Below the pieces are notes generated by a model. That model did not search any database. It was not told where the DNA came from and worked only from the letters and a program-made list of their open reading frames with translations. Positions 1 to 37,441 of a DNA stretch of 64,000 nt are shown here, one piece after another. Position 1 is the first letter of the stretch. Every line of letters begins with the position of its first letter. The stretch comes from Microbacterium arborescens (GTDB taxonomy: Bacteria > Actinomycetota > Actinomycetes > Actinomycetales > Microbacteriaceae). The translations under genes were made by a program, and so were the position numbers. The stretch covers positions 2,852,001 to 2,916,000 of the forward strand of contig NZ_CP128474.1 of NCBI RefSeq assembly GCF_030369635.1, in the 5' to 3' direction.

Positions 1-1571
1 GTCGCGCGGTGCAGTTCGAGGTACAGCTCCCCCACCCATACCGGCGGCTTCGGCAGCTCGGCCATCGCGCGTTCGAAGAACGCGTCGGGGTGCTCCCACT
101 GCACGCGTGCGCTGCCTTCGAGGTCGGCGAGGCGCTCGGCCTTGCCGGTCATCTCGCGGGTCGTGCCGCCGCCGCCGTCGCCCCACCCGACGGGCGCGAT
201 GGATCCGGATGCCACACGCGATTCGCGGAACTGCCGCGACGCCTTCGCCACCTCCATGCCCGACAGCTGCGAGTTGTAGGTGTCCATCGGCGGGAAGTGG
301 GTGAACATCCGCGACCCGTCGATCCCCTCCCAGGCGAAGGTGTGGTGCGGGAACTTGTTCACCTGGTTCCACGAGATCTTCTGCGTGAAGAACCACTCGA
401 AGCCGGCGCGGCGCATGAGCTGGGGCAGCGCGGGCGAGTATCCGAACGAGTCGGGCAGCCATACGCCGCGCGAGCGGATGCCGAACTCCTCCTCGAAGAA
501 GCGCTGACCGTAGAGGAACTGGCGGGCGATCGCCTCGCCGGTGGGCATGACGGTGTCGGACTCGACCCACATGCCACCCAGGGGCAGGAAGCGCCCCGCG
601 GCGACGGCATCCTTGACCTTCGCCCACACCTCGGGACGATGCTCCTTGAGCCAGGCGTACTGCTGCGCACTCGACATGCCGTACCGGAAGTCGGCGCTCT
701 CCGCCAGCAGCTCGGTCATCGTGGTGCTCGTGCGCGCGACCTTGCGGATGGTCTCACGCACCGGCCACAGCCACGCCGAGTCGATGTGGGCGTGGCCGAT
801 GGCCGAGATGCGGTGCGCGCTGGCCTCGGCGGGCGACGCCAGCACCTCGGCGAGCGCGGCCCGCGCGTCCGCGGCGGTCTCGGCGATGTGCTGCAGGTCG
901 ACACGGTCCAGCGCGTCGTCGAGTGCCTGCAGGATGCGCATGCGCCGGGGCGCGGTCTCGGGCAGCTCCGCCTGCAGTTCGACGAGCACCTCGAGGTCGA
1001 GCGCGAGCTCGTGCACCTCGGGCTCGAATACGGCGAGGTCCATGTGCCGGACCGTGTAGAGGGGCCGGGGCGAGGAGGTCTGGATGTCGCCCTCCTGCGT
1101 CGGGAGGAAGGGGTGGTAGTCCAGCAGCACGGGGTTGGCGGCGGCCTCGATGTAGAACTCGACCTCTTCATCGCCGGCGGCTTCCTCGGCGATGCGCACC
1201 CACTGGTTGCGGGGGTTGAGCGACTTCACCGGCTCGCCGCTGGGGAGGTAGACGAGCCCTTCGCACTGGAAGCCGGGCATGTTCGGGTCGAAGCCGAGGT
1301 CGACGACGGCCTCGACCCGGCGACCCGCCCACGCCGCCGGCACCCGCCCGCGCACGCGGAACCAGGTCGTCGACCATGCCGGTCCCCACGGAGATCCCGC
1401 CTCGAACGGCTCGAACTCCAGCGCCAGACCGGCGGCAGGCGCGATGGGCTCGCCCGGCAACCGGTTCGCCGAGATCTCGAGCGGGATGCGCGCGGAATGG
1501 ATGGCGGGGCGGATGCGCTCGGTGAGCACGCGTGCGGCGCGGCCGGTGGTGAGAGGGATGTCGTCGTGCAT
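1..1571 (-). CDS. GH38 alpha-mannosidase (3' end cut by window edge)
   Basis: Removes alpha-linked mannose from mannosides and N-glycans. 523 codons are visible with no stop before the window edge. Residues 259-264 read GHAHID, the zinc-binding signature of GH38, followed by SAWLWPVRET. Residues 370-380 read VWLPDSFGYSP, whose Asp374 matches the family nucleophile. The last visible residues, GELYLELHR, are also typical of GH38. There is no signal peptide, so it should act in the cytoplasm. It is the last visible gene of the sugar importer operon, 50 bp after the GH5-type gene. Whether it cleaves alpha-1,2, -1,3 or -1,6 bonds cannot be read from the sequence. Confidence 0.93.
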   Translation of the reverse strand, partial: MHDDIPLTTGRAARVLTERIRPAIHSARIPLEISANRLPGEPIAPAAGLALEFEPFEAGSPWGPAWSTTWFRVRGRVPAAWAGRRVEAVVDLGFDPNMPGFQCEGLVYLPSGEPVKSLNPRNQWVRIAEEAAGDEEVEFYIEAAANPVLLDYHPFLPTQEGDIQTSSPRPLYTVRHMDLAVFEPEVHELALDLEVLVELQAELPETAPRRMRILQALDDALDRVDLQHIAETAADARAALAEVLASPAEASAHRISAIGHAHIDSAWLWPVRETIRKVARTSTTMTELLAESADFRYGMSSAQQYAWLKEHRPEVWAKVKDAVAAGRFLPLGGMWVESDTVMPTGEAIARQFLYGQRFFEEEFGIRSRGVWLPDSFGYSPALPQLMRRAGFEWFFTQKISWNQVNKFPHHTFAWEGIDGSRMFTHFPPMDTYNSQLSGMEVAKASRQFRESRVASGSIAPVGWGDGGGGTTREMTGKAERLADLEGSARVQWEHPDAFFERAMAELPKPPVWVGELYLELHRA

Positions 1572-1593
1572 GGGTGGGTGGATCCGTTCGGTC

Positions 1594-1621
1594 GGGTCGG
1601 GTCGGGTCGGGCCGGGTCGGG
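1594..1621. repeat. GGGTC pentanucleotide tandem repeat between two glycosidase genes
   Basis: About six near-perfect copies of the GGGTC unit fill the 50-bp gap between the GH5-type gene and the GH38 gene. The plus strand has more than four GGG runs spaced by two bases, which fits a G-quadruplex pattern. The operon mRNA would carry the C-rich complement close to the GH38 start codon. Confidence 0.8.
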
Positions 1622-2920
1622 TCAGGGCAGGGTGGCGGCGGCGCCACCGCCGAGGACGGGGGTGGGTGCGCCTCGGTCGGCGGCATCCACTCGCTCCATC
1701 CTCGAGATCCCTCGTGCGGCGAGCAGCGCGGCATCCGTCTGCCGCGAGGCGAGGACGACCTGCGGGCCGCGGCCATCGCGTTCGGCGGCGCGCACCCAGG
1801 CTTCGAAGAATGCGCCGCCCGGTGCACAGTCGGCGCGGTAGGGGCGGGAGTCGTCGAGTACCAGGCCGACGGGGGATGCCGCCGGGCGGGGTGCGCCGCG
1901 CAGTTCGCGCGCCAGCTCGGCGAACCGGCGACCGGTCGGTTTGACGGCGCCGTCCTCGTCGATCAGTCCGAGGTCGTACTCGACCGGCGGGAAGTCGAGC
2001 AGGGAGCGGGCGACGTCGTGGGAGCACCACCACGTGACGGCGGAGAGCACGGGGACGTCGGCGGCGCGACGCACCGTCTGTTCGAGGAAGTCGGCCGCGT
2101 CGCCGCGATCGACGACGGTGACGGGCACGCCGACCTCCTGGAGCCAGACCGGGCGATCGGCGAGAGCGTGCCACGCGGCCGCGAGCTGCACGAGGTACTC
2201 GGCGTGCCGCACCGATCCGGCGCCGAGGCCGCCGTGACGCTGGGCCGCGCCGTTGAAGACCCAGGAGTGCACGACGGTCTGGTCGCCGTGCTCGGCGGCG
2301 TGAGACGGCAGGAAGGGTTGACGCTCGTCGTACCAGGTCGCGTCGTAGGCGGCGTGCGTGATGAGGCCGGGTGCGCTCTCGCGTGCGACGCCGAGGAGAC
2401 GCACGAGCCACTCCTCGGCCTGCGCTTCGTCGATCGGATGCGGGTGCGGGTGCGGCCTCGCGGCGAACTGGTTGACCTCGTTGCCGAGGGTCAGCCCCAA
2501 GACGTTGGGGCGCGGCCGCAGCACCTCTCCGAGGGCGCGCAGGTACGCCTCCTCGCCCGCGAGGGCCACGGGGTCGGTGAAGATGTTGCGCTCGTGCCAC
2601 GTCGTGACCCACGCGGGCAGGAAGTCGAAGCTCGACAGGTGCCCCTGCAGCGCGTCGACGTTGACATCGAGGTCGAACTCGGCCGCAGCATCCACCACCG
2701 CGCCGATGTCGGCGAGGGCCGCGGGCCGGAGCAGTCCGCGGTTCGGCTGCACGAGGTGCCACAGCGGGAAGAGGCGCACATGGTCGGCCTCGAGCCCGGC
2801 GACCGCCTCGAAGTCGCGGCGCACCTCGTCGAGGTCGAGGTCGAGCCACGCATGGAACCAGCCGGCGCGGGGCGTGTAGTTCACGCCGAATCTCATCACG
2901 GGGTCGATCGGGGAGGTCAT
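1622..2920 (-). CDS. GH5-type glycosidase, probable beta-mannosidase (GH5_18-like)
   Basis: 432 residues with a TIM-barrel glycosidase pattern. Residues 143-151 read LTLGNEVNQ, placing the acid/base at Glu148 after an Asn. Residues 259-264 read WLQEVG, placing the nucleophile at Glu262. GH5_18 enzymes of bifidobacteria remove the beta-mannose joined to GlcNAc at the N-glycan core and sit beside GH38 genes, as here; this assignment is by context. There is no signal peptide, so it should be cytoplasmic. The start has a GGAAGG site 4 bases upstream; an internal Met9 is possible. A His-rich PHPHPHP stretch follows the acid/base. Confidence 0.8.
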   Translation of the reverse strand: MTSPIDPVMRFGVNYTPRAGWFHAWLDLDLDEVRRDFEAVAGLEADHVRLFPLWHLVQPNRGLLRPAALADIGAVVDAAAEFDLDVNVDALQGHLSSFDFLPAWVTTWHERNIFTDPVALAGEEAYLRALGEVLRPRPNVLGLTLGNEVNQFAARPHPHPHPIDEAQAEEWLVRLLGVARESAPGLITHAAYDATWYDERQPFLPSHAAEHGDQTVVHSWVFNGAAQRHGGLGAGSVRHAEYLVQLAAAWHALADRPVWLQEVGVPVTVVDRGDAADFLEQTVRRAADVPVLSAVTWWCSHDVARSLLDFPPVEYDLGLIDEDGAVKPTGRRFAELARELRGAPRPAASPVGLVLDDSRPYRADCAPGGAFFEAWVRAAERDGRGPQVVLASRQTDAALLAARGISRMERVDAADRGAPTPVLGGGAAATLP

Positions 2921-2986
2921 GGGGCCTTCCGGGGTCGGGGACGACGGGGCGGAGAAGGGGGCGACGCGAGGAAGCGGGGGTGGGGC

Positions 2987-3874
2987 TCAGCCCTTGACCC
3001 CGCCCTCCTCGACACCCTTGAAGAAGTGACGCTGCAGCACCGCGAAGACGATCGCGATCGGGACGAAGGCGATCATCGAGCCCGCGGCGATCATGCGCTG
3101 ATCGTTGGAGAACGTGCCCGACAGGTATTGCAGGCCGATCGTGAGGGTGAACTGGTCGGGGCTCGTCAGCACGATGAGCGGCCACAGGAAGTCGTCCCAG
3201 GCGCCGATGAAGCTGAAGATCGCGATGACGGCGACCGTTCCCTTCACCGACGGGAGCGACACGCTCCAGAACCGCTGCAGGGCGTTGGCGCCGTCGATGA
3301 TCGCCGCCTGGTCGATCTCTTCGGGCAGCACCCGGAACGCGTTGTACATCAGCAGCACGTTGAGGGTGGCGACCATGCCGGGCAGCGCGACACCGAGCAG
3401 GGTGTCGGCGAGGCCGAGGTTGCGGATCGTGACGAAGTTGGCGATGATCGTCGCCTCGCCCGGCAGGATCAGCGTCGCGAGGAACAGGCCGATGACGATC
3501 TTGCGTCCCCGGAACCGCAGGCGCGACAGAGCGAAGCCGGCGAGGGTCGAGAACACGACGTTGCCGCCCACGGCGAAGACCGCGACGAACAACGAGTTCC
3601 CGATGAACTGCCACACCGGGATCGCATCCATGACGCGGGTGTAGTTGTCGAGCGTGGGCTGGCTCGGCCACAGCTGCGGGATGCGGGTGTAGATGTCTTC
3701 GCTCGTGCTCTTCAGCGATGTCGAGAGTTGCCACAAGAACGGGCCGATGCTGATGAAGAGCACGAGGACGAGCAGCCCGTACCGGGCGACGATCTCGCCC
3801 GGCCGCATCGAGCCGAACCCGCCGCGGCGACGTCGGCGGGGTTCGACCCGCTCGCGGGTGGCGGTGGCGCTCAT
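2987..3874 (-). CDS. Sugar ABC transporter permease, MalG type
   Basis: 295-residue inner-membrane permease of the CUT1 sugar ABC family with about six membrane segments. The EAA loop that contacts the ATPase is visible (EEIDQAAIIDGA, then PSVKG). Its ATG overlaps the stop of the MalF-type gene in an ATGA, so the two are translationally coupled. It pairs with that permease and the binding lipoprotein to import an oligosaccharide, inferred to be a mannose-rich N-glycan. No ATPase gene lies in the window; CUT1 systems in Actinobacteria often share one encoded elsewhere. Confidence 0.93.
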   Translation of the reverse strand: MSATATRERVEPRRRRRGGFGSMRPGEIVARYGLLVLVLFISIGPFLWQLSTSLKSTSEDIYTRIPQLWPSQPTLDNYTRVMDAIPVWQFIGNSLFVAVFAVGGNVVFSTLAGFALSRLRFRGRKIVIGLFLATLILPGEATIIANFVTIRNLGLADTLLGVALPGMVATLNVLLMYNAFRVLPEEIDQAAIIDGANALQRFWSVSLPSVKGTVAVIAIFSFIGAWDDFLWPLIVLTSPDQFTLTIGLQYLSGTFSNDQRMIAAGSMIAFVPIAIVFAVLQRHFFKGVEEGGVKG

Positions 3875-4848
3875 TCGCTGCTCCGGCTGTTGATCTTGGC
3901 GAGGACGAGCATCGGTACGAGCGTGACGAAGAACATGAGGATGCTGAGCGCGCTGGCGTAGCCGAGGTCGCCCGAGAACCCGCGGGAGTACTGCTGGATG
4001 AGCATGACCATCGTCATCGCCTCACCGCCGGCGCCGCCCGTGCCCCCGGTCATGATGAACACCTCGCTGAAGACGCGGAGAGCGGCGATGCACACCAGCA
4101 CGGCGATGAGGAACATCGCTCCGCGGACGGCGGGCAGGGTGACGGAGAAGAAGCGTCGCACCGCGCCGGCGCCGTCCATCGCGGCGGCCTCGTGCAGGTC
4201 GCGGCTGACGTTTCCGAGGGCGGCGAGGTAGATGATCATGTAGAAGCCGAGACCCTTCCACACCGTCAGGCTCACGGCGCTGAGGATGATGAGCCAGCGG
4301 TCGGTGAGGAAGGGCAGCGGCTGCTGGATGATCGACATCGCCTGCGCGAGGCCGTTCACCAGCCCCCGGTCGTCGAGCATGAAGGTCCAGATGAGGGCCA
4401 CGACGACGGCGGAGGCGATGACGGGCGTGTAGAACGCCGTGCGGAAGAAGGCGATGCCGGGGAGCTTCTTCTCGACCAGGAGTGCGATGAGCAGCGGGAG
4501 GATCGTCAGCAGCGGCAGGCACACGAGCATGAACACGACGCTGTTCAGCAGCGCGCCCATGACCTGGTCGTCGCGGAGGATCAGCTCGAAGTTCCGGAAG
4601 CCGACGTATTGCTCGTTGCCCCCGAGCGGCTTGGCGTTCGTGAACGCCATACGGATGGTGTTGAGCGAAGGCCAGATCGAGAACACCGCCAGCCACAGCA
4701 GGGCCGGGGCGAGGAAGAGCCACGGCGTCCACGAACGGGTCGCGTTCGCGGGGCCGTGCCCGACGGGACGGCGCCGTCGTGCCGCGGTGGCGGCGGGCGC
4801 CCCCGCGACCGGGGCGAGCCCGGCCGCGGGGAGGTTGGTGAGGGTCAT
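3871..4848 (-). CDS. Sugar ABC transporter permease, MalF type
   Basis: 325 residues with a basic, Ala-rich N-terminal tail, then about six membrane segments. The EAA loop reads HEAAAMDGAGAVRRFF. It starts 8 bp after the stop of the solute-binding protein gene, with an AAGG site, and overlaps the next permease by 4 bp. This order (binding protein, MalF, MalG) is the standard CUT1 operon. The adjoining mannosidase genes make a mannose-containing oligosaccharide the likely cargo. Confidence 0.93.
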   Translation of the reverse strand: MTLTNLPAAGLAPVAGAPAATAARRRRPVGHGPANATRSWTPWLFLAPALLWLAVFSIWPSLNTIRMAFTNAKPLGGNEQYVGFRNFELILRDDQVMGALLNSVVFMLVCLPLLTILPLLIALLVEKKLPGIAFFRTAFYTPVIASAVVVALIWTFMLDDRGLVNGLAQAMSIIQQPLPFLTDRWLIILSAVSLTVWKGLGFYMIIYLAALGNVSRDLHEAAAMDGAGAVRRFFSVTLPAVRGAMFLIAVLVCIAALRVFSEVFIMTGGTGGAGGEAMTMVMLIQQYSRGFSGDLGYASALSILMFFVTLVPMLVLAKINSRSSE

Positions 4849-4856
4849 GGCCGGCC

Positions 4857-6128
4857 TTACTGCCGTGCCAGCAGGTCGTTGAGCTTCTCGACCGACTTGT
4901 CGAGCGCTTCCTGGCCCGAGATGTCACCGCGGATGGCCAGGGCGATCTGCTGGTTCAGGTAGTCGTTCATCGCCCCGTTGACCGAGTAGGGGGTGAGCAC
5001 CTCGGCGGTCTTCAGCGACTCGAAGCCGGTGATGCGCGCCTTCGCCGACGGGGTGCCGTCGTCGTCGGTGAAGTAGGGGTCGGCGTCGGACCCCTGGGTC
5101 GAGGGGAAGACGTTCGCGATGTGGGCGAAGGCGTTCTGGTTCTCGGCGTTGGTGACGAATTCGGCGAAGGCGAGCGCTGCGGCCAGGTTCTCGCTGCTCG
5201 CAGCCACGCTCACGCCCTGCACGTACAGCGGCGAGATGTTCAGGGCGGGGGTGATGGCGACGTTGCCCTTCAGACTCGGGTTGTTCTCCTCGAACGAATC
5301 GATGGCGGTCGCGCCGCCGGTCGTCCACGCGACCTTGCCCTGCGTGAACAGCTGCGCGTTCCCGAGGTAGTCGGCGTTCAGCACGGTCGGCGGCATCTCG
5401 CCGTTCGCGTAGGCCTCCGCGTAGCGATCGACGAGCGCGGCCGCCTCGGGGGTGTTGAACACGAACTCGGTGCCGTCGTCGTTGAGGATGTCGATGCCCT
5501 CGAGCGTGAAGTCGCCGATGCCGGGCACCCGGCTGATCAGGAAATCGTCGGGGCAGGCATCCGCCATCGTCGCTGCCTGCGCGAAGAGCTCGTCGGTCGT
5601 CTTCGGCGGGTTCGCCGAGTCGAGGCCGCACGCGTCGAGCTGGGTGGAGTTCCAGTAGTTGACGTCGGTGCCGAGGTACCAGGGATAGCCGTACACGCCT
5701 TCGACGCCGTCGAAGCGGTAGGCGTCGACCGAGCCCGCGAAGTAGGTCGACTCGAGGTCGGTGGCCTTGCTGACGTCGTAGAGCAGGTTCTGCCGGGCGA
5801 GAGGAAGGGCGAAGTCGGGCGGGAGGTTCACGACGTCGGGAAGCGTGTTCGTCGACGCCTGCGACAGCACCTTCTCGGAGTACCCGTCGCCGGGCTGGTC
5901 GAGAAGTTCGACGGTGACATCGGGGTACTTCTCCTCGAAGGCGTCGATGACGCCGTCGAGGTACTCGGCATAGGTGGGCGTGAGCGACCAGGTCTGGAAC
6001 CGGATCGATCCCGCGACCTCGCCGTCGGGGTCGGAGCCGGCTCCGGGCCCGCTCGAGCACCCGGCCAGAAGCGCGGTGGCGGCGAGCAGTCCGAGCCCTG
6101 CCAAAGCGGGGGTTCGCGAGTTCCTCAT
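4857..6128 (-). CDS. Extracellular sugar-binding lipoprotein of the ABC importer
   Basis: 423 residues, solute-binding protein family 1. A lipoprotein signal peptide ends in LLAGC, with the acylated Cys at residue 24, so the mature protein is anchored outside the membrane. An ATG 24 bases further upstream exists, but the start at 6128 has an AAGGAG site 9 bases away and gives a normal signal peptide. It would capture the glycan released by the Endo H-like enzyme. Two LacI-type operator dyads lie in the 107-bp gap to the divergent lacI gene. Confidence 0.93.
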   Translation of the reverse strand: MRNSRTPALAGLGLLAATALLAGCSSGPGAGSDPDGEVAGSIRFQTWSLTPTYAEYLDGVIDAFEEKYPDVTVELLDQPGDGYSEKVLSQASTNTLPDVVNLPPDFALPLARQNLLYDVSKATDLESTYFAGSVDAYRFDGVEGVYGYPWYLGTDVNYWNSTQLDACGLDSANPPKTTDELFAQAATMADACPDDFLISRVPGIGDFTLEGIDILNDDGTEFVFNTPEAAALVDRYAEAYANGEMPPTVLNADYLGNAQLFTQGKVAWTTGGATAIDSFEENNPSLKGNVAITPALNISPLYVQGVSVAASSENLAAALAFAEFVTNAENQNAFAHIANVFPSTQGSDADPYFTDDDGTPSAKARITGFESLKTAEVLTPYSVNGAMNDYLNQQIALAIRGDISGQEALDKSVEKLNDLLARQ

Positions 6129-6179
6129 GGTGTGCAACTCCTTCGTATGCAAACGGTGCGACGGGGTATAGCCTGAGCA

Positions 6180-6195
6180 ACTAAACCGAGTAAGT
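6180..6195. promoter_or_regulatory. LacI-type operator, site 1
   Basis: The sequence ACTAAACCGAGTAAGT is an imperfect dyad around a central CG, as is usual for LacI-family operators. It matches the sites at 6204 and 11390. It lies between the divergent binding-protein and lacI genes, so it could control both. Confidence 0.6.
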
Positions 6196-6203
6196 CAAGG
6201 ATC

Positions 6204-6219
6204 ACTTATCCGGTTCAGC
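6204..6219. promoter_or_regulatory. LacI-type operator, site 2
   Basis: The sequence ACTTATCCGGTTCAGC has the same central CG and ACTTA half-site as site 1. It starts 24 bp from site 1 and lies just upstream of the lacI start codon, suggesting autoregulation. It is the weakest match of the three at its right half. Confidence 0.5.
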
Positions 6220-6235
6220 TCGCGAGGAGAAACCG

Positions 6236-7276
6236 ATGACCACACCGCGCAAACGGGCGACCATCGCCGACATCGCCCGGCGGCTCGGTGTCTCGAAAGC
6301 GGCCGTGTCGTTCGCGCTCAACGACCGTCCCGGGGTGAGCGTCGAGCTGCGCGAACGCGTGCTCGCCGTCGCCGCCGAGCTTCGGTACCGACCCAACTCC
6401 GCGGCGCTCGCGCTCGGGCGCTCGCGCGTCGACGTCATCGGGCTCGTCATCAACCGCCCCGCGCGGACCCTCGGCACCGAAGCGTTCTTCCCCGAACTCA
6501 TGGCCGGCATCCAGGCGGGACTGTCGGAGACCCACACCGGCCTGCAGACCCTCGTCGTCTCGTCACTCGAGGAGGAGCTCGCCGCCTACAGCACGTGGCA
6601 GGCGACGCAGCGCGTCGACGGGGTGATCGTCGTCGACCCGCGCCGCGACGACGCGCGCATCGCGCTCCTGGCCGAACTCGACCTGCCGGCGGTGCAGATC
6701 GGCAGCCACCCGAGCATCGATGCGGCGATCCCGAGCGTCTGGATCGACGACCACGCCGTGGCCACGGCACTCTTCGAGACGCTCTTCGACCTCGGGCACC
6801 GTCGCGTCGCGCACGTGACGGGGCCGCTCGACTTCGAGCACACCGAGCTGCGCCGGTCTGCCCTGAGCGAGTGCGCTCGGCGCTACGACGCCCCGGCGCC
6901 GCTCTCCGTGGCGACGGACTACTCCGCCGAGCAGTCGGCTGAGGCCACCCACTCGTTGCTCGCCGGCGGTGACCGACCGACCGCGATCGTCTACGACAAC
7001 GACGTCTTGGCGCTCGCGGGTCTGCGGGTCGCCCAGGAGCTCGGTGTCTCGATCCCCGGCGACGTCTCGGTCGCGAGCTTCGACGACTCGATCGCGATGA
7101 GACTCGTGCGCCCCTCGATCACGGCGCTCACGCGCGACACCTATGCGCTCGGGGAGCTCGCCGCGCGGACCTTGATGGATGTCATCGGGTCGGACGGCCC
7201 GGTGGCATCCGTCGCCGCGGCCCCGCCCGCGTTGTCCGCGCGCGAGAGCACCGGCCCGGCGAAGACCTCCAGCTGA
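6236..7276 (+). CDS. LacI-family transcriptional regulator of the N-glycan locus
   Basis: 346 residues. An N-terminal LacI helix-turn-helix (TIADIARRLGVSKAAVSFAL) is followed by a periplasmic-binding-like sugar-sensing domain. The normal C-terminal LSAREST signature is present, so the protein is full length. It is divergent from the ABC importer operon and has two operator-like dyads in its own upstream region, with a third in front of the Endo H-like gene. It most likely represses all these genes until a mannose-containing ligand is present. Its last 136 bp overlap the 3' end of the GH92 gene on the other strand. Confidence 0.93.
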   Translation: MTTPRKRATIADIARRLGVSKAAVSFALNDRPGVSVELRERVLAVAAELRYRPNSAALALGRSRVDVIGLVINRPARTLGTEAFFPELMAGIQAGLSETHTGLQTLVVSSLEEELAAYSTWQATQRVDGVIVVDPRRDDARIALLAELDLPAVQIGSHPSIDAAIPSVWIDDHAVATALFETLFDLGHRRVAHVTGPLDFEHTELRRSALSECARRYDAPAPLSVATDYSAEQSAEATHSLLAGGDRPTAIVYDNDVLALAGLRVAQELGVSIPGDVSVASFDDSIAMRLVRPSITALTRDTYALGELAARTLMDVIGSDGPVASVAAAPPALSARESTGPAKTSS

Positions 7277-10200
7277 GCGAGATCGATCCGGGTCACCGCT
7301 TCGAAACGCACCCATGCGATGTCAGGGACCCCACCCCGCGTAGCGAACGGCCGGGTCTGCGACGCGATGTGGAGTTCTTCACCAGAAGGTTCGTCGACGC
7401 GTTCGTCGAGGTCGAACCACTCCCCCGACGGGGTGCGCCCGCGCAGCCGCCAGGACACCGTCGTGACCGCTGCGGGCGAGCCCGGGTCGGGACACCTCAC
7501 CGGCAGCGGCGCGGGCCGCCCCGCGAGCGTGACCGTGTAGAGCCCGATGCTCGACGAAGCGCGCAGCGGGAGGTCGACGGCGTCGCCGGGTTCGAGGCAC
7601 AGGACGCTCTCGCCGATGTCGTCGGTGACCGATCGCGGCACGACCTCGAGCAGGTCGACGAGCGGCGGTGCGTCGAACTCGACGCTGAAGGATGTGGGCC
7701 GTGTCGTCTTCGCCCACCCCGCTGGTTCGTCCGAGAGCTCCACCTCGATGAGTTCGGCTCGACGGACGACATCCGCGGGCACCGCGATGCGCTCCCACAC
7801 CCGCCCGTCGATGCGCACCTCTCGGATGTACGGCCGCCCGGCGCCGGTCGTGATGATCTCGAGGGGGCGCTCACGCCCCTCCGGATGCAGCACGACGCGG
7901 GGCAGCAGCGGCGGCGTCAGCACGAACTCGCCCGCGCCGGGAACCAGCGGGTAGAGGCCGAGCACCGCGAAGAGGTACCACGCCGACATCTCGCCGTTGT
8001 CCTCGTCTCCGGGATAGCCCTGCCCGATGTCCGAACCGGCGAACAGGCGGTCGCGGGCCTCGACGACGATCCGGTGGGCGTCGTCGTGTCGCCCCGCGAA
8101 GCAGTACATGAACGGGATGTGGTGCGCGGGCTGGTTCGACAGCCCCAGCATGCCCATGCGAACGTCGCGCGCCTCGCTCATCTCGTGGATGACGAACCCG
8201 TACGAGCCGACGAGGTCGGGGGCGGCGGTCTCGGGCGTAGCGAAGAAGACGTCGAGAGCGGCGCCGAGCCCCTCCTCGCCGCCGTGGAGGGTGGCGAGCC
8301 CTGCCCCGTCGTGGGGCGCGGTGAACATCGTGCCCCACGCGTTGGTCTCGGTGTAGTCGTGCCCCCACTCGGCGGGGTCGAACTCGTCCGCGCTCACGCG
8401 CCACTCGCCGTCGGGGCGTCGCCCCAGGAAGAAGCCGAGATCGTGGTCGCCGCGTCGATGGAGGCCGGGACGGAACACCGAACGGTAGGCGAGCGCGCGG
8501 CGCGCGAGGTAGTCGGCCTCGGCGGCGAGACGGTCGCGCTCGGCGGCATCCGTCTCGTCCCGGATCAGCGCACGGGCGAGCCGGGCGGCGGCGGCGTCGT
8601 TGATCGCGTTGTCGAGCGTCCACGACATGCCCTCGTGCGTGTCGGTGTCGGTGAAGCCGCGGAAGATCGCGGGACGGAGCCCCTTGCGACCGACCCGCGG
8701 ATCCGCGGCGGGCACGGTCGCGTGGCGCAGGGCCGATCGGTAGGCCTGCCGCGTGTCGATCGCGACCCCGAGCGCCTCGAGCCCCGCGAAGACCGTGTCG
8801 CTGGTCGTGCCGGTCATCGAATCGACCGGCCCCGGCGCGCTCCACCGGGCGACCCATCCGGCGTCACGGAAGTGCTGCACGAAGCCGTCGGCGAGGGCCG
8901 CGGCGGTGCGCGGGGCGAGGAGCCCGAGGAACGGCCAGGCGGTGCGGTAGGTGTCCCAGAATCCGTTGTTCGAGGAGTAGGTGCCGGACCGCACGACACC
9001 GTCGACCGGGCTGCGGTAGCGGGGGCCGCCGGGCGACGGCTCGTCGTGGGCATTGGGGTAGCTGAAGACGCGGGCGAGGGATCCGGCTATCGAGCGGAGG
9101 GTGTCGTCCGAGACGGCGCCCGGCGCTGAGATCTCGAACCGTTCGAACACCCCGCGCCACGCCGCCTCGGCCGCGGCGCGCATGTCGTCGACACCGCCGG
9201 CGGCACGGGCGTTCTCGGCCGCTTGAGCGGCGTCGATCGTCGACATCCCCACGACGATGTCGACGGCGGGTCGCTCGAAGACGATCGCGCCGCGCAGCGA
9301 GCCGCGTGAGAGCGCGAGGTCGTGGCGGCGAACCCCCGGCAGCACGGCGTGCACATGGTGGTCGGGGCGACCGCCGCCGTCGCGGAGGTGGACATCGAGG
9401 TGCAGTGCCCCGTCGTGTTCCGCCCACGCGGCCGAGACCGCTTCGCCCAGGTGATCGACGACGACCGACAGCTTGTCCGAGTGCGAGCGGAACCGCATGC
9501 CCACGGCATGGCGGGCCGCGGTCAGCAGCACCGAGACTCCGTCGAGCTCGACCCGGTACTCGTGCGGGGATGCGTGTTCGCCGGCCCTGGCGAATCGGCG
9601 CGCCCGCTTCCGACGGTCGCGCTGGGGCCTCTCGTTCGGGCTCGGCATGAGCTCGAACACACCACGGTCGCCGATCCACGGACTCGGGATATGACTCGTC
9701 GCGAACGCCTGGATCGCCGGGCGGTCGACCTGGTAGCGATAGGGCCAGTTGCCCGCCGAGGCATCGGTCATCGGCAGCGCGAACACGCCGCCGTGGGGCA
9801 GGGTCACGATGGGCGCGGTGTTCCCGCGCGAGAAGCGATCCGATCCCCGGGTTCCGCGGCGGGTGTCGGCCCATCCCATCAGGTGCTCCGGGCGGTGCGG
9901 CACGGGCTCGATGACGGGTGGGGCGACGAACACGATGCGCCCGCCCCGACCCGGGCCGACAACGACGCGCACGCCCGCGATCCGACGCCCGACGACGGGC
10001 GAGAGGTCGACGGTGCGGCGGTTCCACTGATCGACCCAGAGGCGCTTCGAGCGTGCCTGCGCGCCGGGGTCGACGGCGTCGCCGTACTGGTCTCGCGCGC
10101 CGGCCCCCGAGAGGGTGGTGCCGTCATCGAACACGAGGTCGACGGCCACGGCGGTCGCCGCGTAGCGATCGTCAGGCATCCCCTCACGGGACTCCGCCGC

Positions 10201-10416
10201 GACGGGGAACACGTCGACGGTGAGCTGTTCCCCCGCCGCGACACGGCGCCCGCGCAGGTCGGGCTGCTCGTTCGCAGCGGGCAGGTCGGTCACGGACGGG
10301 CCGGCACCGACGTCGATCCGGAAGCAGCGACGCCGGTCGGATTCGGCGGTGTCGGCGGGTGCGAAGGCGGGGACGGCGCGGCGGACGCGCTGACCCCGCG
10401 TAGGAATGTCGACCAT
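7141..10416 (-). CDS. GH92 alpha-mannosidase
   Basis: 1091 residues. GH92 enzymes are calcium-dependent alpha-mannosidases, often exo-alpha-1,2. Family-type motifs are visible: FWDTYRTAWPFLGLL, YTETNAW near residue 690, NQPAHHIPFMY, and DEDNGEMSAWY around residues 804-814. A probable beta-sandwich C-terminal region ends in IDLAQLEVFAG. No signal peptide is seen, so it is predicted to be cytoplasmic, unlike many GH92 enzymes. The ATG at 10416 overlaps the Endo H-like stop codon (TGATG), so the pair is coupled. The 3' end runs 136 bp into the lacI gene. Exact linkage specificity is unknown. Confidence 0.92.
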   Translation of the reverse strand: MVDIPTRGQRVRRAVPAFAPADTAESDRRRCFRIDVGAGPSVTDLPAANEQPDLRGRRVAAGEQLTVDVFPVAAESREGMPDDRYAATAVAVDLVFDDGTTLSGAGARDQYGDAVDPGAQARSKRLWVDQWNRRTVDLSPVVGRRIAGVRVVVGPGRGGRIVFVAPPVIEPVPHRPEHLMGWADTRRGTRGSDRFSRGNTAPIVTLPHGGVFALPMTDASAGNWPYRYQVDRPAIQAFATSHIPSPWIGDRGVFELMPSPNERPQRDRRKRARRFARAGEHASPHEYRVELDGVSVLLTAARHAVGMRFRSHSDKLSVVVDHLGEAVSAAWAEHDGALHLDVHLRDGGGRPDHHVHAVLPGVRRHDLALSRGSLRGAIVFERPAVDIVVGMSTIDAAQAAENARAAGGVDDMRAAAEAAWRGVFERFEISAPGAVSDDTLRSIAGSLARVFSYPNAHDEPSPGGPRYRSPVDGVVRSGTYSSNNGFWDTYRTAWPFLGLLAPRTAAALADGFVQHFRDAGWVARWSAPGPVDSMTGTTSDTVFAGLEALGVAIDTRQAYRSALRHATVPAADPRVGRKGLRPAIFRGFTDTDTHEGMSWTLDNAINDAAAARLARALIRDETDAAERDRLAAEADYLARRALAYRSVFRPGLHRRGDHDLGFFLGRRPDGEWRVSADEFDPAEWGHDYTETNAWGTMFTAPHDGAGLATLHGGEEGLGAALDVFFATPETAAPDLVGSYGFVIHEMSEARDVRMGMLGLSNQPAHHIPFMYCFAGRHDDAHRIVVEARDRLFAGSDIGQGYPGDEDNGEMSAWYLFAVLGLYPLVPGAGEFVLTPPLLPRVVLHPEGRERPLEIITTGAGRPYIREVRIDGRVWERIAVPADVVRRAELIEVELSDEPAGWAKTTRPTSFSVEFDAPPLVDLLEVVPRSVTDDIGESVLCLEPGDAVDLPLRASSSIGLYTVTLAGRPAPLPVRCPDPGSPAAVTTVSWRLRGRTPSGEWFDLDERVDEPSGEELHIASQTRPFATRGGVPDIAWVRFEAVTRIDLAQLEVFAGPVLSRADNAGGAAATDATGPSDPMTSIKVRAASSPSA

Positions 10417-11330
10417 CAGCCGACGTAGACCGCTTCCTGACCCGAGAGCTGGCGCGTGAACGACGACACGTACGAGCTGCGGTCGCCCGCGGTCAGGTTG
10501 TAGGTGACGTAGACGCCGTACCCCTCGTCCACGGTACGGCGGGCGAGGTTCGCCGCCGTCGTCGCCGACGTCTGCGTCAGGTCGATCGCGGCGGGACCGA
10601 GGCGGTCCTTGCCGACCCCCGGGTAGGCGGGGATGTTGTACTGCCCGTAATAGGGGTTCCAGATGTAGTCGAGCTTGTCGAGCACCGATGCCGGAGCGGA
10701 CTTCAGGCTCGCGGCCGCGGCGCCGATGTCGTAGAGCGAGATGATGCTGCCGGCCGGCAGCTTCGCATCGAGCGCGTCGACGAGCCACCGAGCGGAGTCG
10801 GCGTTCGCCGCCGGCACGCCGTTCGAGCCGTACGTGACCCACTCGTCGTCGATGTCGACGCCGTCGAGACCGTACTGCTCGACCACGGCGGCGACCTGGT
10901 CGGCGAAGGCCGCGGCGGCGGCCTGCGACGGGAAGTTGGCGAAGCCGGCAGCCTGATGGTTGCCGAGCAGCGACAGGGTGACCTTGATGCCCTTGTCCTG
11001 CAGGGGCCGGATCTGCGTGTCGGCATCCTCGAGGGTGGCTGTCACCTGATCGTTCAGGTGCAGCACGGCCCCGGTACCGTCGTGGTTGATGTTCGCGGCG
11101 AAGATGATCGCGACGTCGAACGCGTTCGAGCCGTCGGCCAGCTCGTAGTCGCCGACGGTCCGGAGCTCGTTGCTGTTGACCTCGACGTACGCAACGGTCA
11201 GCGGGTCGGTCGACGCGGCCGACGCGGCCGACACGGCGGTACCGGGCGCGAATGCGGCTGTGGCCAGCGCGGCCGCCGCGAGCGCGGCGAGCGCGGCGGA
11301 ACGGCGGGCGGGGCGGGGGGTCCTCGACAT
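10416..11330 (-). CDS. Endo H-like endo-beta-N-acetylglucosaminidase (GH18), secreted
   Basis: 304 residues, close to the size of Streptomyces Endo H. It cuts between the two core GlcNAc residues of high-mannose N-glycans, releasing the glycan from glycoproteins. A twin-Arg-free Sec signal peptide covers about residues 1-38. The GH18 motif DGVDIDDE spans residues 156-163, with catalytic Asp161 and Glu163. LLGNHQAAGFANFPSQ and ARRTVDEGYGVYVTYNL also match Endo H closely. The start at 11330 has GAGGAG 4 bases upstream; ATG 11342 lacks a site. A LacI-type operator lies 60 bp upstream. It is translationally coupled to the GH92 gene. Confidence 0.95.
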   Translation of the reverse strand: MSRTPRPARRSAALAALAAAALATAAFAPGTAVSAASAASTDPLTVAYVEVNSNELRTVGDYELADGSNAFDVAIIFAANINHDGTGAVLHLNDQVTATLEDADTQIRPLQDKGIKVTLSLLGNHQAAGFANFPSQAAAAAFADQVAAVVEQYGLDGVDIDDEWVTYGSNGVPAANADSARWLVDALDAKLPAGSIISLYDIGAAAASLKSAPASVLDKLDYIWNPYYGQYNIPAYPGVGKDRLGPAAIDLTQTSATTAANLARRTVDEGYGVYVTYNLTAGDRSSYVSSFTRQLSGQEAVYVG

Positions 11331-11389
11331 GATGCTCCTCATTGAGTTCGCTGTCGTCGGCACGGTGCCGACGCGTGCCAGAGAACCCG

Positions 11390-11405
11390 ACTTAACCGAA
11401 TTAGT
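11390..11405. promoter_or_regulatory. LacI-type operator upstream of the Endo H-like gene
   Basis: The sequence ACTTAACCGAATTAGT is a dyad around a central CG and matches the two sites by the lacI gene (common pattern ACTWANNCGNNTWAGT). It lies in the short gap between the SDR gene and the Endo H-like gene, so it would bring the endoglycosidase and GH92 pair under the same regulator. Confidence 0.65.
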
Positions 11406-11436
11406 CAACGGGCGCGGCCCCGGGTTCGGCGGAGCG

Positions 11437-31761: not shown

Positions 31762-32871
31762 ATGCCTTCTGTCGCGATCATCGGTACTAGGGGTTACCCG
31801 AGTTTCTATGGAGGATTCGAAACCGCGGTCAGGCGCCTGTCACCTTTCCTCGTCGATCACGGATGGGATGTCACGGTTTACGGTCGGCCAGGCGCGGTTC
31901 GTGACGATAGCGCCGATCGAGACCCGCGCGTTCGGAGCGTGACGACCCGCGGCGTGGAATCCAAGTCCCTCAGCACTCTCTCGTACGGCCTGACGGCCAC
32001 GATGGACGCGGTCGTGCGCCGGAAGCCCGACGTGGCTCTCGTGATGAACGTTGCCAACGGCTTCTTCCTGCCGATGATGAAAGCGCGCGGCATCCCCACC
32101 CTCGTCAACGTGGACGGCATCGAGTGGGATCGCGATAAGTGGGGCCGCGTCGCGAAGACCATGTTCCTTACGGGGGCACGACTCACGGCTCGGTTCGGGA
32201 CCAACCTCGTCTTCGACGCCCGCGCGATCGAGCACCGCTGGAAGCAGCAGTTCGGTCGGGATGGCGTGTTCATCCCATACGGCGGGACGGATCCCGGGCC
32301 GCTCGAAGTCCCGCTCGGGTTGCCGTCACGGGGCTATGCGCTGATAGTCGCCCGATTCGTTCCGGAGAATAGCGTTCCCGAGTTCCTCCGCGCCGCACGC
32401 CAGATCGCCCTCAAACACCCGGTGGTCATCGTGGGCTCCAGTGGCTACGGGGGGCAGCTTGACGAGGAAGCAGAGCAGTTGGCGGCTTCCTCGCCGAACG
32501 TTCGGTGGCTCGGCCATCTCAGCGACGATGCCCTTCTCTTTGCACTGCTCCAACACGCTGGCGCCTACTTCCATGGGCACAGTGTTGGCGGCACTAACCC
32601 GGCTCTCGTCCAGGCGATGGCGTGCGGAGCGCCGATCGTGGCGCGTGACACCGTCTACAACCGCGAAGTCGTAGGCCCCTCGGGTACGTTCGTGCCGCCG
32701 GCCCCCGAGGCCATCGCGGCCGGGGTTATCGCAATGATGGAGTCGCCCGAGCGACAGGAAGAGGCAACGGCGTCCGCGCTGAGCCGAAGCGAAGAGTTCT
32801 ACACCTGGCAAGCGGTCTGCTCAAGCTACGAGCGGGCGTTGAGGGAGTTGCTGGATGCGCCTGCTCTTTGA
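31762..32871 (+). CDS. Glycosyltransferase family 4 (DUF1972 N-terminus)
   Basis: 369 residues, GT-B fold. The N-terminus VAIIGTRGYPSFYGGFETAV is the DUF1972 signature found in rhamnosyl- and related transferases. The C-terminal half has the GT4 donor site around HSVGGTNPALVQAMACGAPI. It would add a sugar to the lipid-linked repeat unit. The gene overlaps the next glycosyltransferase by 17 bp. GC content is visibly lower than in the flanking regions. Confidence 0.9.
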   Translation: MPSVAIIGTRGYPSFYGGFETAVRRLSPFLVDHGWDVTVYGRPGAVRDDSADRDPRVRSVTTRGVESKSLSTLSYGLTATMDAVVRRKPDVALVMNVANGFFLPMMKARGIPTLVNVDGIEWDRDKWGRVAKTMFLTGARLTARFGTNLVFDARAIEHRWKQQFGRDGVFIPYGGTDPGPLEVPLGLPSRGYALIVARFVPENSVPEFLRAARQIALKHPVVIVGSSGYGGQLDEEAEQLAASSPNVRWLGHLSDDALLFALLQHAGAYFHGHSVGGTNPALVQAMACGAPIVARDTVYNREVVGPSGTFVPPAPEAIAAGVIAMMESPERQEEATASALSRSEEFYTWQAVCSSYERALRELLDAPAL

Positions 32872-33943
32872 CGGGTTCTGGTGGGTGCGCGGTCCGCTCG
32901 CGAATCAAACTGTGATGCGGGAGTTCGTCCACGCTTGGTCGAGGGCATTTCCCGGTGACGAACTGCTGGTGGCGATCCGCCGCAAGCACGTTGCGATGTT
33001 CGAGGAACCCGAAGGCGTCCGACCGGTGACGACGAGACTTGGCCCCCAAGCAGTCTCGAACGCCATCGAGCTTCCTCTGCTTGCTCGGCTCCATCGTGCG
33101 GACTTCGTCGTGAGCCACAACTATGCGCCGATCACCGGCAGATCGTTGGTGTTCATCCACGACCTTCTCTTCGAAGACAACCCCCAATGGTTCTCGCTGA
33201 AGGAACGGGTCTACTTCTCTCCGATGGCGGTATTGGCGCGGCGGGCTTCGATCGTGGCGACGTCTTCAGAGACTGAGGCAGCCCGCATGCAACGCCTCCA
33301 CCGCGAACTCGCGCCTGTGCTGACGACCGGGCTCGGCGTTTCATCTGGACTCACCCATGCGACCGCGCGCCGACCGGCGGGTTTACCGGAAGTCGCCAAC
33401 TTTGTGCTTTCGGTCGGGCGCCTGAATGCACGCAAGAACTTGGCGACGGTCATCGCAGGCGCCATGCGAAGCGCGAGCATCACAGCCAACCGACCTCTCG
33501 TGATCGTCGGCAGCGCGGAGTATTCGGGTGCCCAAGCAGACCTGCCGCCCGCCGTCGCGGAATTCGTCTCGGACGGGCGCCTCATCTTCTTGGGGCGGGT
33601 GTCAGACGGCGAACTTCGCTGGCTGTACGAACGCGCAGATTGCCTCATATACATGTCGTTGGACGAGGGTTACGGCCTGCCCCCTGCAGAGGCGCTGCAC
33701 TTCGGAGCACCGGTGATCGCATCGGACATTGCTGTGATGCGCGAGACCGTGGGGCGTCGAGGGGCGTTGGTGCCGCCGGACTCGGCCGAGAAGCTGGCTG
33801 CGGCGCTGGAACGTATCGCGCCTCGCACGACCAGCGCTCCAGCGACCACGACCCGCGACGCAGAATTGCAGTGGGAGCGAGCGGCCGGGTCTATGCGTGC
33901 GGCGATGCTGTCCTTCGAAGCCGGGAGAGAACACAATGCCTGA
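32855..33943 (+). CDS. Glycosyltransferase family 4
   Basis: 362 residues, GT-B fold. Signatures include NFVLSVGRLNARKN in the second Rossmann half and the donor-site EGYGLPPAEALHFGAPVIAS. It is a cytoplasmic enzyme of exopolysaccharide repeat-unit assembly; donor sugar unknown, perhaps mannose by family habit. It overlaps the previous gene by 17 bp and the next by 8 bp, forming one tight operon. Confidence 0.9.
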   Translation: MRLLFDGFWWVRGPLANQTVMREFVHAWSRAFPGDELLVAIRRKHVAMFEEPEGVRPVTTRLGPQAVSNAIELPLLARLHRADFVVSHNYAPITGRSLVFIHDLLFEDNPQWFSLKERVYFSPMAVLARRASIVATSSETEAARMQRLHRELAPVLTTGLGVSSGLTHATARRPAGLPEVANFVLSVGRLNARKNLATVIAGAMRSASITANRPLVIVGSAEYSGAQADLPPAVAEFVSDGRLIFLGRVSDGELRWLYERADCLIYMSLDEGYGLPPAEALHFGAPVIASDIAVMRETVGRRGALVPPDSAEKLAAALERIAPRTTSAPATTTRDAELQWERAAGSMRAAMLSFEAGREHNA

Positions 33944-34883
33944 CGGCGCCCACCGCCGGCCCCGCCTTTCCGTCCTGATGGTCACGTACAACAGCGCGGA
34001 AGTAGTAGCGGCGTCCCTCAACGCACTCCCGGCAGACGTTGAGGTCATCGTCGTCGACAACGCTTCCGCGGACCACACACGGTCCGTGGTGCTCGACAAC
34101 CGCCCCGATACGGAGTGGGTGCAAACGGGAGCGAACCTCGGATTCGCGCCGGCGGTGAACATCGCCGCGAAGCGCGCCCGGGGCGAGTTGTTCCTCCTCC
34201 TCAACCCAGACGCAATGATCGCGGAACGCGCCATCAATGACGTTTTGGCCGTCTTCGACAAGCATCCCGACGTCGCGGTCGCCGCGCCGATAGTCGTCGA
34301 AGCAGGGGGTCACCTCACCACGATGGCCGGTGGTTTCGAACCGACTATTTGGCGCATGTTCACGCACTCCAGCGGCCTATCGCGACTAGCCAAGAAGATA
34401 CCCCTCCTACGTGGCCACTACCTTCTGCAAGGCCAGCAGAAGCGCGAAGGGCTTACCGACCTCGACTGGGTATCCGGCGGCTGTCTCTTCGTGCGTCGAT
34501 CCGCCTGGACGGAGCTCGGCGGTCTCACTGAGCGCTGGTTCATGTACGCCGAAGACGTGGAGTTCTGCTTGCGGATCCGGGATCAGGGGCATCGTGTCGT
34601 TCTGGCACCTTGGGCCGAGGCTGAACACGCCGTCGGTGGCAGCAGCTCCGGCACGAGTGCTGTGCGTACACAATGGCTCGAGAACCTCTTCGACCTGTAC
34701 CAGATGCGCTACCGGGCCGGCTTCATACGTTCATGGATCTGGCGATTCGTCGTAGCTGGAGGCTATGCCGCACGCGCACTGGTGCTGCGCGTGACCTTCT
34801 CGGCTCGGGGAGATCGAGCTGCGCACCAGCGCTTCGCCTCGTACGCGCGCGCCATCGTGTCCTCGAAAAGACGTGGCGAATGA
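33936..34883 (+). CDS. Glycosyltransferase family 2 (rhamnosyltransferase-like)
   Basis: 315 residues, GT-A fold. SVLMVTYNSAEVV, VDNASADHT, GANLGFAPAVNIAA and LLLNPDA are typical of rhamnosyltransferase-like GT2 enzymes. The central WVSGGCLFVRRSAW and FMYAEDVEFCLR motifs complete the active site. ATG 33936 has GGGAGA 7 bases upstream and overlaps the previous stop by 8 bp. Its stop overlaps the next ATG (ATGA). Confidence 0.92.
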   Translation: MPDGAHRRPRLSVLMVTYNSAEVVAASLNALPADVEVIVVDNASADHTRSVVLDNRPDTEWVQTGANLGFAPAVNIAAKRARGELFLLLNPDAMIAERAINDVLAVFDKHPDVAVAAPIVVEAGGHLTTMAGGFEPTIWRMFTHSSGLSRLAKKIPLLRGHYLLQGQQKREGLTDLDWVSGGCLFVRRSAWTELGGLTERWFMYAEDVEFCLRIRDQGHRVVLAPWAEAEHAVGGSSSGTSAVRTQWLENLFDLYQMRYRAGFIRSWIWRFVVAGGYAARALVLRVTFSARGDRAAHQRFASYARAIVSSKRRGE

Positions 34884-35119
34884 CAGCGGGGTCGCACACG
34901 GGGCTCAGCGGGATTCTCAGCAGCATCTCGGTAGGTTTCGCGTCCCCCGGGTTGCGCGCGGGGCTCCGAATCGGCCTACTTCTCGACTACAGAGACTCTG
35001 CGGGCCCGGTCGCGCTCTGGAAGACGGCCCGATTCGATTGGGTCGAGAGTTCGCTTCGGGTCGCCCGCCGTAGCGTTGGACCAGCCACTTTCGTACTTCT
35101 TCTGCGGGAGAAAATATGA
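34880..35119 (+). CDS. 79-aa protein coupled on both sides between glycosyltransferases
   Basis: The ATG overlaps the upstream stop (ATGA) and its own stop overlaps the next ATG (ATGA), so it is probably translated as part of the operon. The protein is basic with weakly hydrophobic stretches (SVGFASPGLRAGLRIGLLL, ATFVLLL) but no clear membrane helix. No domain is recognised. It could be a leftover of a larger gene, or a small accessory protein. Confidence 0.6.
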   Translation: MTAGSHTGLSGILSSISVGFASPGLRAGLRIGLLLDYRDSAGPVALWKTARFDWVESSLRVARRSVGPATFVLLLREKI

Positions 35120-36153
35120 TCAACCACCTTGAGGTACAGTTCCCCGGCAGCGTCGATGCGGTTGCGTGGGAACAGGCGCACCGCGAAGGGTCCAGGCCCA
35201 GTCGCTGGCCCTACGGTCTGCACAGCCTCGTGACCGAGATGGCGGAGGATATGCGGGTGAGCGTTGGATCGACACCGCCCTCGTCGTACGTAGCACTGGC
35301 GCGCGCCCAGTTCGCAAGCAGGCCCCCCGCGCTCGCCGTCGCGAAGGCCGCCCTCACCTGGGATGAATGGTCAGCGACGCGAGTCATCTCGGCGAATCTA
35401 GACACGCCCGTGCTCTCGGGAGTCATCTGGGCGACTGATCGACCCACATCGCGTCGCAGAACGGCGCAGCGCTTGCTGATGCAGCGTATTCTTCGGCGCG
35501 CCCGAGGACTATGGGTACTGAGCGAGGCTCAGCTGCCTCACCTCCAACAATGGCTAGGGCCCGGGGCGCCCACGTCGAGATATATACGGTTTGGTATTGA
35601 CGAGGACTTCTTCCAGCTCGCGGACTACCCAAGCGATCCTCTAATTGTCAGTGTCGGCGGCGACCGCGACCGCGACACCGCCTCGCTCTACAAGGCTTTG
35701 GGTTCCGTAGCAGATACTCACCCAGCGGTCAGAGCGATTGTGCAAACGTCTTCTCCCTTGCCTCCACCGCCCAACACCACGGCGGTCCCTCATCTGTCCC
35801 ACATCGAGCTCAGAGAGTTGTATCGGCGCGCGACAGTTGTCGTGGTCGCGACCCTGCCGAATTTGCACGCGTCGGGTATGACGGTTTCGCTCGAAGCGAT
35901 GGCCACGGGGCGACCGGTCGTCATCACGGCGACACCCGGACTCGAGGATTACATCGAAGACGGAGCGACGGGAACCCTGGTTCGGTCCCACGAACCGCAA
36001 GGCTTAGCCCGCGCGATCTCGAGATACCTCGACGCCCCCGCCGCAGCAGCCGAGGCGGGGAAGATGGGCCGCGAGAAGGTGCTTCGCGACCACCGAAGCA
36101 CGTCGATGGCCGCCGAACTAGCGAAATTCGCTCGACAGGTTTTGAGGAGTTGA
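35116..36153 (+). CDS. Glycosyltransferase (GT-B type)
   Basis: 345 residues. The N-terminus (FPGSVDAVAWEQAHREG) is unusual, but the C-terminal half is a standard GT4-like donor domain: LPNLHASGMTVSLEAMATGR, then PVVITATPGLEDYI. It would act on the lipid-linked exopolysaccharide unit. Start overlaps the 79-aa gene stop by 4 bp. The sugar specificity is unknown. Confidence 0.85.
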   Translation: MINHLEVQFPGSVDAVAWEQAHREGSRPSRWPYGLHSLVTEMAEDMRVSVGSTPPSSYVALARAQFASRPPALAVAKAALTWDEWSATRVISANLDTPVLSGVIWATDRPTSRRRTAQRLLMQRILRRARGLWVLSEAQLPHLQQWLGPGAPTSRYIRFGIDEDFFQLADYPSDPLIVSVGGDRDRDTASLYKALGSVADTHPAVRAIVQTSSPLPPPPNTTAVPHLSHIELRELYRRATVVVVATLPNLHASGMTVSLEAMATGRPVVITATPGLEDYIEDGATGTLVRSHEPQGLARAISRYLDAPAAAAEAGKMGREKVLRDHRSTSMAAELAKFARQVLRS

Positions 36154-36156
36154 GCC

Positions 36157-36405
36157 TTGCTGGATCAATTGGCCGCTCACGTCGCAAGCTCCGTCAGAAG
36201 ACGCATACTCGCGATCGCAGTTTTCTTCGCTGTCCCAGTCGGTGAGCGGCGCGGACTGAGTATTGAGTTACGGGTCATGGTGCAAGGCGCGCATCATCTC
36301 GAATCGCGCGTGTTGATCGGCCCCAGTGTGCGTGTCCACACGGGCACTCACCCCACATCGGACTCGGGTCCGCGCTCAGGCGTTGAGGGGAGCGCGAGGT
36401 GCTGA
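36157..36405 (+). pseudogene. Probable remnant of a hexapeptide-repeat acetyltransferase
   Basis: An 82-codon frame from TTG 36157, preceded by GAGGAG, that overlaps the next gene start by 7 bp. Its middle reads ESRVLIGPSVRVHTGTHPTS, very like the core of maltose/sugar O-acetyltransferases (RVLIGPNVxIYTATHP). The rest of the left-handed helix domain is missing. It may still be translated, but it is too short to be an active acetyltransferase. Confidence 0.5.
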
Positions 36406-37259: not shown

Positions 37260-37441
37260 AACACACGCGCGCACGCAGGCGCCAACTTGATGGCCACCAC
37301 ACCTCTGCCACTACAACTTCGACAATCACAGAAGCGCAGCTCGTGCAGCGAGATGGGGCTCCGAAGGACCTATCTATTGGCAGGACCGCCGGCCGTATAC
37401 GTGGTCTCTCATAGCTCTACCATCCGACCGAAAGAACCCTT

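Follow-up and report, generated by a model that had tools for sequence, protein, structure and literature searches.

The window, by which we mean the whole stretch of 64,000 nt analysed (bases 2,852,001-2,916,000 of a one-contig Microbacterium genome of 3.37 Mb, completeness 100; coordinates below refer to the window), very probably carries a LacI-controlled regulon for high-mannose N-glycans, in which the glycan would be released first, imported whole and trimmed inside the cell. Our analysis added a palindromic LacI-type site that precedes both operons of the locus and recurs in five other genera. This is a new arrangement of a feeding system of known type; searches of the open-access literature met no title or abstract opening that describes the operator or a cassette of this Microbacterium type.

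Two operons on the minus strand lie on either side of a LacI-family regulator gene (6236-7276, plus strand; PF00356 52.7 bits, PF13377 103.4 bits). The first, from which the regulator gene diverges, encodes in order the solute-binding lipoprotein (SBP) of an importer (4857-6128), ABC sugar permease 1 (3871-4848; PF00528 40.8 bits), ABC sugar permease 2 (2987-3874; PF00528 56.2 bits), a GH5_18-type beta-mannosidase acting putatively on Man-beta-1,4-GlcNAc (1622-2920) and a GH38 alpha-mannosidase, whose 5' part occupies 1-1571 and which continues left of the window. The second contains a secreted Endo H-type GH18 endo-beta-N-acetylglucosaminidase gene (10416-11342) followed by a GH92 alpha-1,2-mannosidase-type gene (7141-10416; 1091 aa). 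Profile and structure-chain matches recovered every gene that a preliminary description had placed in this one locus, namely GH18, GH92, GH38, GH5-type, sugar importer and LacI genes. The closest named relative by GH5_18 among the matches listed was Microbacterium sp. AG238 (98%). Elsewhere in the window, the region 31762-44061 has a GC content of 0.64, against about 0.70, and encodes glycosyltransferases, a polysaccharide pyruvyl transferase and an AT3-SGNH acyltransferase; it is possibly a horizontally acquired surface polysaccharide cluster. Next to it, an OLD-like gene (47378-49057) encoding AAA_21 and TOPRIM domains is possibly a defence gene.

The GH18 protein passed the curated cut-off of the Endo H equivalog model (NF045482, 341.8 bits against 300) and matched the solved chain 6ve1 with 303.7 bits. 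It carries the DxxDxDxE motif, the residues of which are catalytic, as LDGVDIDDEW aligned with LDGVDFDDEY of 6ve1. The hydrophobic N-terminal segment (hydropathy 2.30) agrees with the preliminary description, which took this Endo H-like enzyme to be secreted. Endo H-type enzymes are able to release alpha-1,2-capped glycans. The gene is present in one copy in its own genome, and its stop codon is overlapped by the start codon of the GH92 gene (TGATG), an overlap that three close relatives (L009, L010 and L011) have too and that L014 and L024 lack.

Both Pfam domains of GH92 were found in the adjoining protein, the catalytic one (PF07971) at 306.9 bits against a cut-off of 24.6, and TIGR01180 scored 282.2 (cut-off, 249.55). 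The closest solved chain was 7nsn (539.7 bits), a GH92 alpha-1,2-mannosidase. Alignment with solved GH92 chains located the His-Glu pair, which has a role in linkage specificity, in VIHEM, and the GDEDNG motif in GYPGDEDNGEMSAWY. The IHE and GDEDNGE motifs are kept in the window enzyme and in all 37 related sequences compared; because secreted relatives carry them too, they are no mark of a cytosolic type. The GH92 gene is likewise single in its own genome. At its far end it overlaps the LacI gene tail to tail by 136 bases (7141-7276), a length repeated in L009, L010 and L011, and the overlap is absent in L014 and L024.

As a proxy for location, we used the highest 12-residue hydropathy within the first 60 residues, which is not a signal-peptide predictor. 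The values were 2.30 for Endo H, 2.06 for the SBP (with lipobox), 1.25 for GH38, 0.73 for GH92 and 0.61 for GH5_18, the last having no hydrophobic segment at its N-terminus. The margin was wide for the window GH92 (0.73 versus 2.30 for Endo H) and narrow for some relatives (up to 1.97 versus 2.05 for the weakest Endo H shown). By this measure, no hydrophobic segment was seen at the very N-terminus of the window-type GH92 of L009, L010, L011, L014, L021 and L024, nor in eight Curtobacterium GH92 genes unlinked to Endo H, and inspection by eye revealed none in L108, L109 or L110. A hydrophobic N-terminus was present in GH92 of Leifsonia L090 and the remoter L101, L105 and L106 (2.13-2.52). The window GH92 is predicted from its sequence to be cytosolic. 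A GH92 tree of 37 rows separated the window type from a second type with full support; it was midpoint-rooted for drawing only, with L117 dropped as the same genome as L024, and is therefore silent on whether the signal-less state has one origin or two.

The full GH38 gene (L002:14548-17571; 1007 aa) runs 1,453 bases outside the window edge. Its N-terminal Pfam domain (PF01074, GH38N) scored 304.1 bits, and its closest solved chains were 7ufs, 7ufr, 7ufu and 7uft (683-813 bits), which we take to be B. longum enzymes. The GH5-type enzyme of the preliminary description was present and could be refined to the subfamily 18 type: it had no Pfam match in the profile search and was close to the solved enzymes 7lr7 (ScGH5_18, 455.9 bits), 9y4v, 7lqx, 6gvb and 6mp2 (364-456 bits), so that the assignment reflects closeness to solved GH5_18 enzymes and not a curated subfamily model. 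The SBP was recognized by PF13416 (118.2 bits) and by an LLAGC lipobox in the translation. We attempted to read its ligand from solved relatives, and the best match (98.6 bits) was uninformative because the SBP is too distant from solved proteins.

No ATPase gene for the importer was seen in the locus; the own genome has two MalK-OB matches elsewhere. About 7 kb left of the window (L002 2879-9082), inspection by eye revealed another sugar ABC system, which has two ATPase genes and a LacI gene of its own. Profile searches of the own genome found no GH125 and no GH76 (GH85, GH99, GH20 and further GH38 genes were outside the search). A manA gene over the cut-off lies elsewhere in the genome, as does a NagA-like gene slightly below its curated cut-off (219.8 versus 225.65). 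The preliminary description had called the route complete, which is too strong, because the importer ATPase and the GlcNAc and mannose steps would be encoded outside the locus.

Pattern searches placed one operator-like site between the SBP and LacI genes (6178-6197, minus strand), where relatives have sites too, and another upstream of Endo H (11388-11407, minus strand). The two sites have TGACTnAnTCGGTTnAGTnG in common, and the window contained two matches at up to three mismatches against 0.20 expected. They are the sole matches without mismatch in the 3.37-Mb genome, the pattern having been built from these two. At up to three mismatches, a reversed-pattern control gave four matches in the genome, equal to the four for the pattern itself; therefore, only exact or near-exact sites count. 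A strict palindrome, GACTNANNCGNNTNAGTC, was then searched with at most one mismatch in 16 loci of our own choosing, in which L012/L108, L013/L109 and L015/L110 are each one genome. Twelve of the 16 loci, from 10 genomes, together yielded 24 sites, 23 of them distinct, versus shuffle-control means of 0-0.075 per locus and at most 2 in any one shuffle. Among these loci, L015, L016, L023 and L110 had no such palindrome; L110 has a weaker site at its GH92 start, with two mismatches to a stricter pattern.

Each of the 24 sites is a short distance upstream of Endo H, GH92 or LacI/SBP. For the 17 sites in L009-L024, the distance to the estimated start of Endo H, GH92, LacI or SBP is 16-152 bases. 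In L108 and L109, too, the sites are next to Endo H, GH92 and LacI/SBP; the start called for GH92 in L108, which is uncertain, is overlapped by the GH92 site. Sanguibacter, Serinibacter, Labedella, Frigoribacterium, Leifsonia and M. suaedae provide sites independent of the pattern, whereas the window, L009, L010 and L011 do not. Endo H is preceded by a site in the five other genera (Sanguibacter, L108; Serinibacter, L109; Labedella; Frigoribacterium; Leifsonia) and the importer in Sanguibacter, Serinibacter and Labedella. Sanguibacter and Serinibacter also have a site before GH92, which is located there 9.2 and 15.0 kb, respectively, from LacI, and in M. suaedae Endo H, the importer and GH92 each have one. 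In the window, a common palindromic site, a predicted operator, stands upstream of all units, as in a LacI regulon.

Two further groups were searched and gave no such picture. None of the nine stretches containing an unlinked Curtobacterium GH92 had an operator beside that gene (one had masked bases at the gene start). In 18 Curtobacterium loci, GH38 is followed by Endo H, and the best operator match upstream of Endo H had 5-8 mismatches, so Endo H has no operator of its own there. Of 17 loci searched for the second Microbacterium cassette type, only 2 had the palindrome (L117, which belongs to the window's type, was set aside).

This second type emerged from a survey of 149 Microbacterium genomes, 20 of which have Endo H and 38 a GH92 match. 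All 20 Endo H-bearing genomes have GH92, close to Endo H in 19; one of these 19 is the fragmented G056, in which only part of GH92 is visible, at the end of the contig carrying Endo H. In the remaining genome, G055, Endo H and the importer are present and GH92 is about 0.3 Mb away. A GH92 match without Endo H was found in 18 of the 149 genomes (18 of the 38 with GH92). Beyond the own genome, 18 of the 20 Endo H-positive genomes were compared at the locus level, G056 being left out. The window's cassette occurs in two Microbacterium genomes, its own and G076, and the divergent second cassette in 16 of the 149 (L111-L116 and L118-L127), with the same genes in another order. Identities between the second cassette and the window were 49-57% for Endo H, 51-54% for GH5_18, 44-49% for the SBP and 36-41% for GH92. 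Within the second type, only Endo H, GH92 and one permease are present on L115, a short contig; GH38 was not found in the stretches fetched for L112, L121 and L122; and LacI of L112 and L121 gave only a weak match of 28-29%.

We also compared GH5_18 loci, keeping the best 80 of a set of at least 579. The order LacI / SBP-permease-permease-GH5_18-GH38 was found in 65 of these 80, adjacency not being required; this proportion is skewed toward near relatives because only the best 80 were kept, and some of the 15 that did not match are short contigs. Within this set, the LacI/importer/GH5_18/GH38 core spans Microbacteriaceae to Actinoplanes and Streptomyces, and 25 of the 80 loci have Endo H in their flanks, whereas 6 have GH92 there. 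GH92 was present in all 34 genomes reached via GH5_18 loci (a set that excludes L011) and Endo H over the cut-off in 28; in 9 of these 28, Endo H and GH92 are no more than about 5 kb apart. Curtobacterium has a related GH92 that is unlinked to Endo H. In L110 (1284-18864; G006, a Microbacteriaceae MAG), we noted by eye Endo H, GH92 and GH5_18 near Dpp/Opp-like peptide-type permeases, a possible swap of the importer from the sugar to the peptide (Dpp/Opp) type.

The preliminary description had proposed an order of release, import and trimming; family assignments, N-terminal hydrophobicity, the shared operator-like sites and conserved linkage all speak for this order, shorn of the word complete. 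In the route that we favour, secreted Endo H would cleave the glycans of glycoproteins between their two core GlcNAc residues with no prior trimming, and the lipoprotein and two permeases would import the resulting Man(n)GlcNAc with energy from a MalK/MsiK-type ATPase that is shared and encoded outside the locus. Inside the cell, GH92 would remove alpha-1,2-mannoses, GH38 would remove alpha-1,3- and alpha-1,6-mannoses, and GH5_18 would split Man-beta-1,4-GlcNAc, the mannose and GlcNAc entering general metabolism via the manA- and nagA-like genes. LacI would repress both operons through the common palindrome until a pathway sugar binds. These enzyme activities, the importer ligand and the repression by LacI, like the location of GH92, are predictions from sequence. 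Fungal N-glycan cores are a possible source of the glycan under this explanation.

Fungi are met by a soil or plant bacterium, and GH92 and GH38 enzymes also act on yeast mannan according to PMC10154615. The food might accordingly be fungal or yeast mannan, or mannoproteins generally, with Endo H as an accessory and the importer taking short manno-oligosaccharides. We regard this as improbable: the own genome has neither GH76 nor GH125 (GH99 being outside the search), Endo H and the importer have an operator in common, and a characterized GH5_18 enzyme, that of C. acnes, is an exo-beta-1,4-mannosidase that cleaves the mannose-GlcNAc bond of the N-glycan core (PMC6160142).

A second alternative, to which we give equally little credence, concerns the side of the membrane on which GH92 works. 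The S. pneumoniae EndoD/SpGH92/NgtS system resembles the window in having a GH92 without a known secretion signal, a GH38 and an ABC importer of Man-GlcNAc glycans. PMC5215778 reports that SpGH92 was undetected in the authors' fractionation, that they argued it to be extracellular since inside it would never meet its substrate, S. pneumoniae being unable to release alpha-1,2-capped glycans, and that NgtS binds Man5GlcNAc; trimming is proposed there to precede release, EndoD being limited to Man5 or smaller. By analogy, the window GH92 could leave the cell through non-classical secretion and the importer take Man5GlcNAc. However, a signal is encoded by the adjoining Endo H gene, with which the GH92 gene partly overlaps, and not by the GH92 gene itself. 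The pneumococcal argument, moreover, needs an endoglycosidase unable to release alpha-1,2-capped glycans, whereas Endo H-type enzymes can release them. Unlike in S. pneumoniae, Endo H would allow release first here; the locus endoglycosidase is Endo H, and the genome has no GH125 (GH85 was outside the search). With the pneumococcal obstacle removed by Endo H, a cytosolic GH92 makes sense in the release-first route.

That the Endo H-GH92 pair and the GH5_18 operon are chance neighbours with different substrates is highly improbable. In favour of it, Curtobacterium GH92 is unlinked and without an operator, GH92 is missing from the flanks of 74 of the 80 GH5_18 loci compared, and GH92 occurs without Endo H in 18 Microbacterium genomes. 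Against it, operator sites are in common even where the pair is distant, Endo H lies within 25 of those 80 loci, and both divergent Microbacterium cassette types hold the set.

The release-first route resembles in outline that of B. longum, whose high-mannose N-glycan system is reportedly described by Cordeiro et al. and where three GH38 enzymes and GH125 do the trimming. From its genes, the window is proposed to combine endoglycosidase release outside, whole-glycan import and demannosylation inside, as in B. longum; GH38 has its best solved relatives in 7ufr-7ufu, and GH5_18-type enzymes are known from bifidobacteria. In contrast, the window has a GH18 Endo H and would trim with GH92 and a GH38 (one in the locus, to which the count refers), its genome having no GH125. 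The preliminary description was half right in calling a cytoplasmic GH92 unusual, as a review (PMC10154615) reports that neither B. longum nor B. thetaiotaomicron processes the high-mannose glycan ahead of the GH18/GH85 step and that models for them already place demannosylation inside, S. pneumoniae being the one that trims outside first. The B. thetaiotaomicron locus (BT3987 and three GH92; PMC10154615) resembles ours in surface GH18 release, import and GH92 inside. Unlike that organism, the window relies on a Gram-positive ABC importer. Import in the B. thetaiotaomicron locus is of the outer-membrane SusCD type, with periplasmic enzymes. C. acnes likewise has a GH38 and GH5_18 pair without signal, and differs in a locus with GH20 and an EndoT-like GH18 without signal (PMC6160142). 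Streptomyces and Actinoplanes loci share GH38 and GH5_18 together with LacI, SBP and permease genes, the Streptomyces ScGH5_18 having been solved (7lr7/7lr8); unlike the window, those fetched had no Endo H or GH92 match in their flanks. Actinobacterial GH5_18 enzymes are also said to have been studied by Higgins et al. in 2021.

On balance, we lean towards the broader view that actinobacteria with the two divergent cassette types use a Gram-positive route of releasing first, importing whole and trimming inside, in which an ABC importer would accept glycans up to Man8-9GlcNAc and a cytosolic GH92 would perform the alpha-1,2-trimming, reversing the pneumococcal order with the same enzyme family. 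If true, soil and plant-associated actinobacteria would be able to take up very large branched glycans through an ABC importer, within a regulon that has a defined candidate operator. The pair of systems would also offer a natural contrast in which the site of trimming, outside or inside the cell, follows from how far the endoglycosidase reaches.
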